Origin: Acidobacteriaceae bacterium
Lineage (GTDB): Bacteria > Acidobacteriota > Terriglobia > Terriglobales > Acidobacteriaceae
Direction of reading: 5' to 3'
DNA: 60,764 nt
NCBI GenBank assembly: GCA_003140075.1
Contig: PLIO01000068.1
Location: forward strand, 72,239-133,002
Part shown: in pieces, positions 44,581-47,749 of the stretch
Position numbering within the stretch: the stretch's first letter is position 1
Layout: each line of letters begins with the position of its first letter
Notes under the pieces: model-generated
What the model saw: the letters and a program-made list of their open reading frames with translations, nothing else
Told to the model about the DNA's origin: nothing
Database searches by the model: none
Position numbers and translations under genes: made by a program

Positions 44581-45309
44581 ATGAGTACCGCACGTCTGGA
44601 AAGCCTAACCCCGGAACCGGCGCATCATCACATTGTCCGGCGCACCATCGAAGCCTGTCATCTCGCCAAGGAAGCCGCTGGCGCTGCCGCCGAAGGCATT
44701 GCCACCGGCTCCGGCCACCTTGCTGAACTCTCTTCGCCAACGCGAGCGCGAACTCGACGCGCTTCGACATGGAAATCGACAGCGCTGTAACCACTCGCCA
44801 TCACCGAAGTCGAGCCCGCACGAAGCCCGCGAACTCCTCGCCTGCATGAAGTTCATGATCAGCCTGGAGCGCATCGGCGACCTGCTCCTCAGCTTCGCCA
44901 ACAGCGCTCAAGCCGCATGCCGGGACGAATCGACTCCGAAGACACCCGCGACCTCACTCACATGGCTACCATCCTCGAAAAAATGCTCACCGACGCCGGC
45001 GACGCCTTCTCCACGCGCGACGTCGGCAAGGCGGTCGACGTGCTCCGCGCCGACTCCGAGATGGATCGCCTGCGCAACCTCATTTTTCTCCGCCACATCG
45101 AGAATCCGGAAAACATCGCCCGCCAGGCCAGCCTGCAAATCATCTTCATGACCCAGTCCCTCGAGCGCGCCGGCGATCACGCCAAAAACCTCGCCGAGGA
45201 AGTCTGCCACGTAGTCAGCGGCCACACCGTCCGCCACGTCCTCATGGCCTACGACAAACCCGTGGAACAGATGTTCATTGATTACCTCCGCAGGCGGGAA
45301 GGCCACTGA
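44581..45309 (+). pseudogene. phoU: phoU interrupted by five clustered frame changes
   Basis: PhoU dampens the PhoR/Pst phosphate signal. ATG 44581 with AGGGAG 8 nt upstream begins a PhoU of the acidobacterial type. Conceptual repair gives RRTIEACHLAKEAAGAAAEG, then LRQRERELDAL, MEIDSAVTTAITEVEPHEAR, ELLACMKFMISLERIGDLLL, and onward to YDKPVEQMFIDYLRRREGH, about 240 residues. To read this, the frame must move at about 44719, 44765, 44795, 44815 and 44920. Four moves are +1 and the last is -1 (or +2), so the final frame equals the first. Protein conservation between the breaks is perfect. Either the gene is freshly dead or this 200-bp patch is a local sequence error. It follows phoB-phoR. Confidence 0.8.
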
Positions 45310-45542: not shown

Positions 45543-45899
45543 ATGGTGCGTTGTCGCTCCGTTGTGGTCTTGAGCTTGCTTGCCCTCTGGCTCGCGATCC
45601 CTGCGCTCGCTTGTCTGCCGAATACGCAAATGACGCCGTCTGAAATGGCGTGCTGCAAGAAAATGGCAGGAGATTGCAACATGGGAACGGGGCAGCATCC
45701 TTGCTGCAAAACTGTTTCTAACGCTCCAGGTTCCATCGCGTCGGTGCAGCCGATTTCGCAGGTTTCTCCCGATTTCGCCGTCGTTGCCGAAACCATAGTC
45801 ACCCTTGTCCCGTCCGTATCCGAGGCAGAGTCAGAGCAAATAGGTCTGGGTCTGCCCCCTCCCGCGCCACCCGGTCACAATTCAATTCTGAGAATCTGA
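45543..45899 (+). CDS. Secreted Cys-rich protein of a metal operon
   Basis: 118 residues. Signal peptide (VVLSLLALWLAIPALA) is followed at once by a cysteine cluster: ACLPNTQMT, EMACCKKMAGDCNMG, QHPCCKT. Seven cysteines with His and Met nearby suggest a periplasmic metal-binding protein. The C-terminal half is plain and ends in a Pro-rich GLPPPAPPGHNSILRI, a tail I associate with acidobacterial proteins found next to copper or mercury genes. It is the first gene of the operon with the outer-membrane protein, MerP-like and MerT genes, and runs divergently from the merR remnant. Function is inferred; no enzyme motif. Confidence 0.65.
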   Translation: MVRCRSVVVLSLLALWLAIPALACLPNTQMTPSEMACCKKMAGDCNMGTGQHPCCKTVSNAPGSIASVQPISQVSPDFAVVAETIVTLVPSVSEAESEQIGLGLPPPAPPGHNSILRI

Positions 45900-45970
45900 A
45901 CTCCGCGTTGTCTGCTTCAGCACACGAGGCAATGCCCACGTGTGTGTTTCAGCCCATCGCGGAGGGAAAT

Positions 45971-46822
45971 ATGAAACGTGCAGTAGTGTTGCTCGTTGTA
46001 TTTGGACTGCCCTTGTTTGCCGCTGCTGCGGCGCATGGGCCAGTTTTCGGGCTTGCGACCCCCACAAATTCGCAAGGCGAGTGGAGCTTCGACGAGGGGA
46101 TATTTGGTCGCAACACGCCCTTTGGCACGCAAGCGTCAGTTCGAGAGTTGATTGCGTATGGGTTCACCCCGCACCTGACACTTTCTCTGACCCTTCCAGT
46201 CGTCGTCGGAGATACCACGCTTCCTCCCACTCGAATCCAGCCGGGAGATGATTTTGACACTACGGTCGCGTGGCGCTTCCAGCACAGGGCTACAAGGGTT
46301 GGCACCCGCTTTGAAAGCACAGCCTTCGCTGGTCTCGCCGTTCCCGGACCGCAGTCGGGGTTCAAGGGTGTCGCTCACACCACAAACGTCCCCGGCACGA
46401 TGCTCGGCGTGGTCAGTGGTATGGCATCTCGTAGCAATTACGTCTGGCTTGGGAGCACCTACACGAAGTTCTACGAGCACGATGGCGACAAGCGTCCCGA
46501 CGTACTCGACTACAGTCTGGTGTACGGCTATCGCCCTCCAAAATGGCGCAGACCACCTGACAAATGGGACTGGAGGCTTTTTGGCGAGCTAGTCGGAGAA
46601 CGTTCTGACAGGTTTCTTCAAGCGAACATCGCCGTACCAAACACACAAGCGCACCAAGTTTTCCTTGGGCCGACAGCACTCGGGATTTTTCACAATTACA
46701 CCGTCAGCTTCGGCGCTCAGTTCCCGATCTATCAGGATGTCGGGTCTGCGTTCCCCAAGGAGCACGTTCGCTTTGCGGTGAATTTTAGTTATCTGCTTTT
46801 TCAACACGGACATTCACACTAG
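45971..46822 (+). CDS. Outer-membrane beta-barrel-like protein of the metal operon
   Basis: 283 residues from ATG 45971, with GGAGGGAA upstream. Signal peptide (MKRAVVLLVVFGLPLFAAAAAHG). The mature part alternates short beta strands with aromatic ends (ATPTNSQGEWSFDEGIF; LIAYGFTPHLTLSLTLPVVVG; YTVSFGAQFPIYQDVG; VRFAVNFSYLLF), a pattern of outer-membrane barrels and of the transporter-like proteins that accompany heavy-metal genes. His-rich end FQHGHSH could bind metal. It lies 10 bp before the MerP-like gene. Specific transport role is inferred from context only. Confidence 0.68.
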   Translation: MKRAVVLLVVFGLPLFAAAAAHGPVFGLATPTNSQGEWSFDEGIFGRNTPFGTQASVRELIAYGFTPHLTLSLTLPVVVGDTTLPPTRIQPGDDFDTTVAWRFQHRATRVGTRFESTAFAGLAVPGPQSGFKGVAHTTNVPGTMLGVVSGMASRSNYVWLGSTYTKFYEHDGDKRPDVLDYSLVYGYRPPKWRRPPDKWDWRLFGELVGERSDRFLQANIAVPNTQAHQVFLGPTALGIFHNYTVSFGAQFPIYQDVGSAFPKEHVRFAVNFSYLLFQHGHSH

Positions 46823-46832
46823 GGAGACTCAA

Positions 46833-47336
46833 ATGAGAAAACTATCTGCTTTGCTCGCTTCTTTCTTGATATTCACATCTTTCGCCTCGGCGGAAATCCA
46901 GTCGATCAATATCAAGATTTTTGGCATGGATTGAGAGGTCTGTGCACACGCCGTGCGCGTGTCATTGAAGTCGGTGTCAGGCGTGGACTCGGTTGACGTA
47001 AGCCTCGAAAAGGGGCTGGCGGTGGTAAAGATGAAACCGGGGAACACGGCTACGCTCAAGCAACTGAACGAGGCCATCGCCAAGAACGGATTCACCATGA
47101 AAGACTCGATGGCGACCGTCGCTGGCGCCGTCACTTTGACGGATAGCGACGCGATGCTGAAGGTGTCGGGCTCCGACGACATGCTGCGACTCGTGCCTGA
47201 GTCCGCGTCCGCGCCGAATGCAACCTCGATGGTCGGCAAAACCGTTTTGGTAGAAGGCACGATTCCCGAGGCGGGGAAAGGCAAGGCACCCGCCTCCATT
47301 CGCTATCAGTCGATCGCGGAAGAGAAGCCACAATGA
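46833..47336 (+). CDS. merP: MerP-like heavy-metal-associated protein, candidate selenoprotein (in-frame TGA)
   Basis: ATG 46833 has GGGAG 6 nt upstream. Signal peptide MRKLSALLASFLIFTSFASA, then EIQSINIKIFGMD, TGA (46932-46934, codon 34), EVCAHAVRVSLKSVSGVDSV and onward to the stop at 47336 (167 residues with the TGA read through). The HMA/MerP metal site is GMxCxxC; the TGA stands exactly at the first Cys, giving GMD-U-EVC (Sec34, Cys37). The frame beyond stays open and conserved (HMA domain to about residue 90, then an ~75-residue extension ending IRYQSIAEEKPQ) and overlaps merT as ATGA. A hairpin consistent with a bacterial SECIS follows the TGA. In the periplasm it would bind Hg(II) or a similar soft metal and hand it to MerT. 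A nonsense mutation is the alternative. Confidence 0.82.
46935..46964 (+). promoter_or_regulatory. Candidate bacterial SECIS hairpin
   Basis: After the TGA come 11 nt, then a 5-bp stem ACACG (46946-46950) / CGTGT (46958-46962) with a 7-nt loop CCGTGCG that has G and U. The loop begins 16 nt after the TGA, within the distance range for bacterial SECIS elements. The stem is short, so support is moderate; it lies in coding sequence, as is normal for bacteria. Confidence 0.5.
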
Positions 47337-47749
47337 ATGATGTCGCAACAACCACACGCAGGCGGTCGGCTCTGCTCAGCTATTTCTCCCTGTTCACGTC
47401 GCTCAGCACGCTGCTTTGCTGTGCCCTTCCTTTTTTGCTCGTCCTTTTCGGCTTGGGAGCGTCGGTCGCTTCCGCGCTCTCGTTCATGCCGTGGCTGGTG
47501 ACGCTCTCGCGGCACAAACAGTGGACGTTCTCAGTTTCCGGCGTCCTGATCGTGCTGAGCTTCGTGAACACGTACTACCTTGCGCCCCGATTGAGACCAG
47601 CCGAGTGCAGCCCTGACGATCCGTCCGCGTGTAAGGATGCGAGCGCGGTCAGTAGAGCTATTCTTTGGGTCTCGGCAGGTATCTACGTGGTCGGCGTCTT
47701 CGTTGCCTACGTGCTCGGGCCTATTCTGACTAAGCTCGACCATTCGTAA
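47333..47749 (+). CDS. merT: MerT-like mercury/soft-metal membrane transporter
   Basis: 138 residues, three transmembrane helices (about 16-38, 64-84, 107-129). The vicinal cysteine pair typical of MerT lies in the first helix (TLLCCALPFLLVLFGLGAS, Cys29-Cys30), and a second pair sits in the loop (AECSPDDPSACKD, Cys92 and Cys100), as in MerT. ATG 47333 overlaps the MerP-like stop (ATGA), so the two are translated together. Family role: takes Hg(II) from MerP into the cytosol. No mercuric reductase (merA) follows, which leaves the fate of the metal open. Confidence 0.88.
   Translation: MNDVATTTRRRSALLSYFSLFTSLSTLLCCALPFLLVLFGLGASVASALSFMPWLVTLSRHKQWTFSVSGVLIVLSFVNTYYLAPRLRPAECSPDDPSACKDASAVSRAILWVSAGIYVVGVFVAYVLGPILTKLDHS

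Follow-up and report, generated by a model that had tools for sequence, protein, structure and literature searches.

A predicted selenocysteine at the metal-binding site of a MerP-like protein from an Acidobacteriaceae bacterium

In MerP, CopZ, and P-type ATPases, metal is bound by the CxxC motif of the HMA domain, and MerT uses cysteine pairs for Hg. Most selenoproteins with an assigned function are redox enzymes. Sec-containing HMA or mercuric transport proteins have previously been listed, both in a 2008 marine survey (PMC2398784) and in the form of two NCBIfam models, NF041115 and NF045683. The selenoproteome table of that survey, which covered the marine GOS data, has a row for “Mercuric transport protein MerP” with 2 sequences and no Cys homologue counted (PMC2398784). 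A table in a 2026 review likewise includes a putative mercuric transport protein and a UxxU metal-binding protein (U stands for Sec), with zero occurrences of the term “MerP” by count in the main text of that review (PMC13188914). The locus described here encodes a MerP-like protein of the UxxC type and is located in a 60,764-nucleotide stretch of contig PLIO01000068.1 (hereafter, the window) from an Acidobacteriaceae bacterium (assembly GCA_003140075.1).

The MerP-like gene and its homologues

The features of the locus are collected in Table 1. In the MerP-like gene, TGA is codon 34 and occupies the first ligand position of the GMxCxxC motif of an HMA protein, whereas the second metal-site residue, Cys37, is encoded by TGT; the site reads GMD-U-EVC (in context, FGMD-U-EVC-AHAVRV). 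This is the single internal TGA of the frame, and it is followed by 133 sense codons (positions 46935 to 47333) and by a TGA stop codon (47334 to 47336) that overlaps the ATG at 47333 of the MerT-like open reading frame (ORF) as ATGA. Re-reading of the window bore out every one of these points as made in an earlier note on this DNA: the coordinates, the codon and the retained second Cys, the length of the open frame, and the overlap with merT. Judged by eye, residues 1 to 20 resemble a signal peptide.

Table 1. Features of the MerP-like locus (window positions unless residues are indicated)
Feature	Location	Strand	Description or basis
Small Cys-rich protein gene	45543..45899	+	118 aa; upstream, same orientation; no family above cut-off
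Outer-membrane beta-barrel gene	45971..46822	+	Same operon; AF2 model, Foldseek, conserved neighbor
MerP-like predicted selenoprotein gene	46833..47336	+	167 aa with Sec34; start ATG 46833
Parts of the MerP-like protein	residues		Signal peptide (by eye); HMA, ~22-90; further C-terminal strands to ~163
In-frame TGA, read as selenocysteine (predicted)	46932..46934	+	TGA in 16 distinct UxxC sequences; TGT/TGC in Cys orthologues
SECIS-type hairpin	46946..46962	+	Pairing, synonymous constraint; broken in Cys orthologues
MerT-like membrane protein gene	47333..47749	+	138 aa; weak MerT-model matches, all below cut-offs

With C in place of U, the protein is recognized by the HMA domain model PF00403 at 50.7 bits (gathering threshold, 24.8). 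Its predicted structure combines the HMA ferredoxin-like fold with extra C-terminal strands; VIA-align structure matches cover residues 19 to 100 of the model, and the first Foldseek rows are chains of human CCS (6fp6, E 5e-5, TMq 0.39, rmsd ~7.5), with single HMA domains coming next. More specific models are not reached: the protein scores 44.1 bits with the MerP model TIGR02052 (curated equivalog cut-off, 92.55), 44.6 bits over residues 20 to 88 with NF041115 (cut-off, 95), with one Sec codon at the site, and 20.6 and 22.2 bits with NF045683 (cut-off, 375), the genes here being separate. Among the NCBIfam models listed for the window protein and for seven of its relatives (two UxxU, four UxxC, and one Cys), none reached its cut-off. 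The earlier note called the protein MerP; the score below the MerP cut-off, the extra C-terminal strands, and the barrel neighbor speak against that name, and the protein is MerP-like.

Homologues were collected from 300 genomes of the same family, an order-level sample, a phylum-level sample, and a number of named genomes. Of the 300 same-family genomes, 87 matched at E 0.001 or better, and the loci of the best 30 matches were read; some of the weaker matches have two TGAs inside. Among these 30 best-matching loci, the TGA..TGY combination was found in at least 11 genomes, the source genome included, with TGT or TGC in the others. The same-family UxxC relatives are 47 to 74% identical to the window protein, the 74% match being partial. 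In total, 80 distinct HMA rows were collected, a site being counted only if Gly-Met-x codons precede it and rows that share the 120 nt around the site being merged: 16 TGA..TGY, 2 TGA..TGA, and 62 Cys..Cys. The UxxC rows come from the family of the window, from a second family of its order (L067), and from two more families within the phylum (L126/L132 and L127), and the shared TGA extends down to 34% identity. All UxxC counts below refer to these 16 rows, including the near copies L025 and L026 and excluding the 2 UxxU rows, and the Cys comparison set comprises the 22 of the 62 CxxC rows, all from Acidobacteriota, that have FGMDC[A/P]PCA and an IHVSM, IRLSM, or IRVSM motif. In the alignments of 14 and 22 rows, F30, G31, M32, D33, [C/U]34, and C37 are invariant. 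Thus, an in-frame UGA occupies a position that holds Cys in homologues, as expected of a bacterial selenoprotein; TGA alternates with TGT/TGC among the relatives, and the 15 further sequences that share the TGA set aside the concern that it might be confined to this one genome.

A tree of 63 of the 80 rows, produced by a quick method with both site columns masked and after dropping rows shorter than 125 aa and CxxC rows that lack GMDC close to their beginning, requires two Sec/Cys changes; because it is unrooted and several of its rows are long-branched, it fits gain and loss of Sec alike. The two UxxU relatives, L047 (genome G164, ~29% identical to the window protein) and L130 (genome G678), have two TGA codons at the metal site and score below the NF041115 cut-off; the genus of the window itself likewise has matches that contain two TGAs (G286, G176, and G260). 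Contig 8 of genome G480 carries two UxxC copies (L126 and L132), ~3 kb apart on opposite strands. In a tblastn search of 72,556 plasmid records, the MerP-like protein had no match at 1e-5, and neither it nor the barrel protein matched PHROGs.

Gene neighborhood and the nature of the site

The product of the MerT-like gene scores 17.4 bits with the MerT model NF010314 (cut-off, 150). It contains a Cys-Cys pair near the N terminus (C29/C30) and a second pair, C92/C100; in an alignment of 13 rows, the former is present in nearly all rows and the latter in all. The ORF of the barrel protein opens at 45908, and the Met at 45971 was taken as its likely start. Its AF2 model has 12 strands (mean pLDDT, 78.2), with FapF (5o68) as the nearest Foldseek match, followed by the COG4313 channel 4rl8.

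Conservation of this operon was evaluated by tblastn of four window proteins against 114 loci, some of which represent the same place twice. Within the flanks, the barrel was found at 15 of the 16 UxxC loci and the MerT-like protein at 13, compared to 22 and 21, respectively, of the 22 Cys loci. The exceptions among the UxxC loci are L132, which is without both, and L067 and L073 (the latter at a contig end), which are without the MerT-like gene; at L126 and L127, the MerT-like gene precedes that of the barrel. The small Cys-rich protein is encoded in front at many loci. In 7 of the 16 UxxC rows, the gene is joined by an ATGA overlap to a MerT-like ORF that is 90 aa or longer, and in 2 more the MerT-like start lies 4 or 7 bases past the first base of the stop codon. 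All of another 26 loci (L094 to L119), from Bacteroidota and others, encode the barrel, and 23 of them also encode the MerT-like protein, the gene order being different, and none of the collected TGA rows comes from them. On the minus strand of the window, an ORF at positions 45278 to 45802 matches the DNA-binding part of MerR-type regulators (PF00376, 28.6 bits, ORF residues 133 to 151) but has no other part of a regulator, and thus seems to be a remnant lying upstream of the operon. A cation-efflux gene (PF01545) is found just upstream of the operon in one Sec and one Cys relative, L070 (1094-1720, minus strand) and L084 (1073-1678, plus strand).

If Sec is inserted at codon 34, the UxxC site could still be a thiol/selenol redox site that serves, for example, to reduce the MerT-like protein or oxidized metal or metalloid species. 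Sec34 would then pair with Cys37 as a redox couple, and the 2026 review regards most uncharacterized prokaryotic selenoproteins as probably redox proteins and notes UxxC and CxxU as redox motifs (PMC13188914). However, the fold is that of HMA and not of thioredoxin, the partner is a MerT-like protein with conserved Cys pairs, and relatives with two Sec residues (UxxU) exist, which makes a redox function of this site an unlikely, though not negligible, competitor of metal binding.

The stem-loop, the selenocysteine machinery, and the reading of the TGA

One description of bacterial SECIS elements gives as their feature a small apical loop with a guanosine (PMC1088965), and the window contains such a stem-loop downstream of the UGA. 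Its 6-bp stem is formed by ACACGC (46946-46951) and GCGUGU (46957-46962), which enclose the G-bearing 5-nt loop CGUGC (46952-46956; CGUGA in L067), and might be extended by a G46944-C46963 pair with C46945 bulged. The stem begins 11 nt downstream of the TGA, in keeping with the 12 nt given in the earlier note. Scanning the window with Rfam models, with gathering thresholds applied, gave 0 matches, a result that speaks neither for nor against a bacterial SECIS element.

The codons that form this hairpin, +5 to +9 after the TGA (CAC GCC GTG CGC GTG), are free of synonymous changes across the 16 UxxC sequences (identity of 1.00), compared to a mean synonymous identity of 0.45 over 60 scored codons of the same sequences, with these five included, and to 0.33 to 0.69 at the same codons in the 22 Cys orthologues. 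The best 5-codon window has a permutation p of 3e-5, and the constraint is confined to the hairpin codons. Codon +8 encodes Arg in 15 of the 16 UxxC sequences and Ser (AGC) in L067. Over seven pairs, including the possible extra G-C, 111 of the 112 cells are paired in the 16 sequences, against at most 63.4% when the partners are slid, and three of the six pairs of the stem are lost in most Cys orthologues, forming in 2, 0, and 4 of the 22 sequences. Covariation is limited to the outermost stem pair (AU in 7 sequences, CG in 8, UG in 1), split mostly by clade, and in the shuffle controls neither the count of pairs in which both sides differ (496/500) nor that of pair types (286/500) is above chance.

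Hairpin free energy was rejected as proof of a SECIS element, since it is unexceptional against synonymous resampling: z is -0.80 for the window and averages -0.66 over 12 UGA rows (11 UxxC rows and the UxxU row L047) versus +0.13 over 9 Cys rows. Given that energy does not single out the hairpin, constraint and pairing were used as the SECIS evidence. The combination of the TGA with this hairpin, as an exact pattern, occurs once in the source genome.

The source genome, a MAG of 5.77 Mb in 276 contigs listed as 100% complete and 5.8% contaminated, contains the full set expected of a bacterium that makes selenoproteins: selA (548.1 bits over two pieces of one frame; cut-off, 267.9), selB (369.6 bits; cut-off, 242.25), selD (373.7 bits; cut-off, 125), and a tRNA-Sec with the anticodon tca (64.4 bits; cut-off, 47), located on four different contigs. 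The search for the four sel genes that the earlier note called for thus recovered all of them and removed the absence of such machinery as an objection. SelB co-occurrence was examined in 14 UxxC, 20 Cys, and two UxxU genomes, leaving out the genome of L073. SelB is above the cut-off in 13 of the 14 UxxC genomes and in 1 of the 20 Cys genomes (Fisher p 2e-7, a descriptive value because the genomes are related). The sole miss among the UxxC genomes is G073, which is 68% complete; in the two UxxU genomes, SelB is above the cut-off in one and scores 219.8 bits in the other, where the match begins at a contig end. The lone Cys genome with SelB, G331 (locus L066), keeps the Sec machinery beside the Cys form.

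These data bear directly on the possibility that the TGA is a plain stop codon, left by decay or truncation of a MerP-like gene or by a sequencing or assembly error. Under the standard code, the frame falls into a stub of 33 codons and an ORF of 127 aa that starts at GTG 46953, and the bare TGA-N6-TGY pattern, flanked by 30 or more open codons upstream and 60 or more downstream, occurs at six places on the two strands of the window, the MerP-like site included. As this pattern is not rare and the hairpin energy is unremarkable, the case rests on homology. There, the same TGA is found in 16 distinct sequences, of which 12 read to at least 157 aa by script, the remainder being L073 (ended by a contig boundary), L038 (without an inner stretch), L127 (short at the C terminus), and L039. 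The frame of L039, which fits the decay reading, is broken near residue 137, with similar residues resuming in another frame, a frameshift that is either real or due to sequencing; general decay of the downstream frames was not seen in the relatives. Together with the synonymous constraint directly 3' of the TGA and the co-occurrence with SelB, this leaves a plain stop very improbable. Decoding of UGA as another amino acid, through a code change or a suppressor tRNA, would account for the open frame alone and is just as improbable, given that this ORF and 12 of the 16 UxxC frames end in TGA and that tRNA-Sec (tca) and SelA, SelB, and SelD are present. Stop, decay, sequencing error, and code change were accordingly rejected on the shared TGA, the constraint, the SelB co-occurrence, and the TGA terminators. 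Recoding of the TGA at 46932 to 46934 as Sec, proposed in the earlier note, gains support from the machinery, the TGA/TGY alternation, and the constrained hairpin with conserved pairing, and on this comparative sequence evidence it is almost certainly what happens.

Proposed function and relation to known systems

According to the preferred explanation, SelB and Sec-tRNA, positioned by the hairpin, would decode the UGA as Sec, turning the HMA metal site into GMD-Sec-x-x-Cys. The mature protein, judging from its signal peptide, would reside in the periplasm, where the selenolate/thiolate pair could capture a soft metal ion. The captured metal might then be handed to the co-translated MerT-like membrane protein at its Cys-Cys pair, this transfer and its direction being putative, and the co-encoded outer-membrane barrel may admit the metal. 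Sec recoding and metal binding by the MerP-like protein, taken jointly, have a probability of approximately 0.75. A soft-metal relay with the MerT-like protein is probable, if somewhat less so. Mercury as the main metal is a tentative proposal that falls short of even odds: it is suggested solely by kinship with MerP and MerT and is weakly founded, because the MerP and MerT models are not reached, the MerR stretch is fragmentary, and the best MerA match in the source genome scores 336.4 bits against a cut-off of 454.45, which falls short of a mer operon. The tighter binding of Hg(II) and other soft metals, compared to a Cys pair, that the earlier note expects of the selenolate-thiolate pair is likewise conjectural. 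There is an even chance that these genes represent a conserved envelope metal relay of Acidobacteriota, consisting of the barrel, a periplasmic Sec/Cys metallochaperone with an extra domain, and a MerT-like importer, in which the role of Sec would be to ligate a soft metal, not to catalyze redox reactions, and Cys would take its place in genomes that mostly lack the Sec machinery.

Conservation of Sec at the position of a metal ligand, with Cys orthologues in the same family, makes these proteins a natural Sec/Cys comparison for the question of whether selenium is used to hold metals. Standard-code annotation would be expected to break genes of this kind in two at the TGA. A literature search that reached only a minority of subscription papers found no description of a UxxC MerP-like protein from Acidobacteriota together with its hairpin and operon.

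Among the known systems, MerP (TIGR02052) is the periplasmic mercury-binding protein of mer operons; the window protein differs from it by having Sec for the first Cys and extra C-terminal strands, and its genome is without MerA above the cut-off. The GOS entry is likewise a MerP-named selenoprotein, although from a marine metagenome, the comparison being limited to the table row (PMC2398784). The NF041115 family consists of HMA-type metal-binding (seleno)proteins, with a likeness that spans the matched residues 20 to 88, but has two Sec residues (UxxU, by its name and the table in PMC13188914), whereas the window protein is UxxC and continues into further C-terminal strands. In NF045683, described as a MerT/CopZ fusion-like heavy metal transport selenoprotein, the MerT-like and HMA parts are, by its name, fused, whereas here they are encoded by two separate genes. 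The window protein represents a UxxC two-part subfamily that lies beyond the NCBIfam models tested, at their cut-offs.
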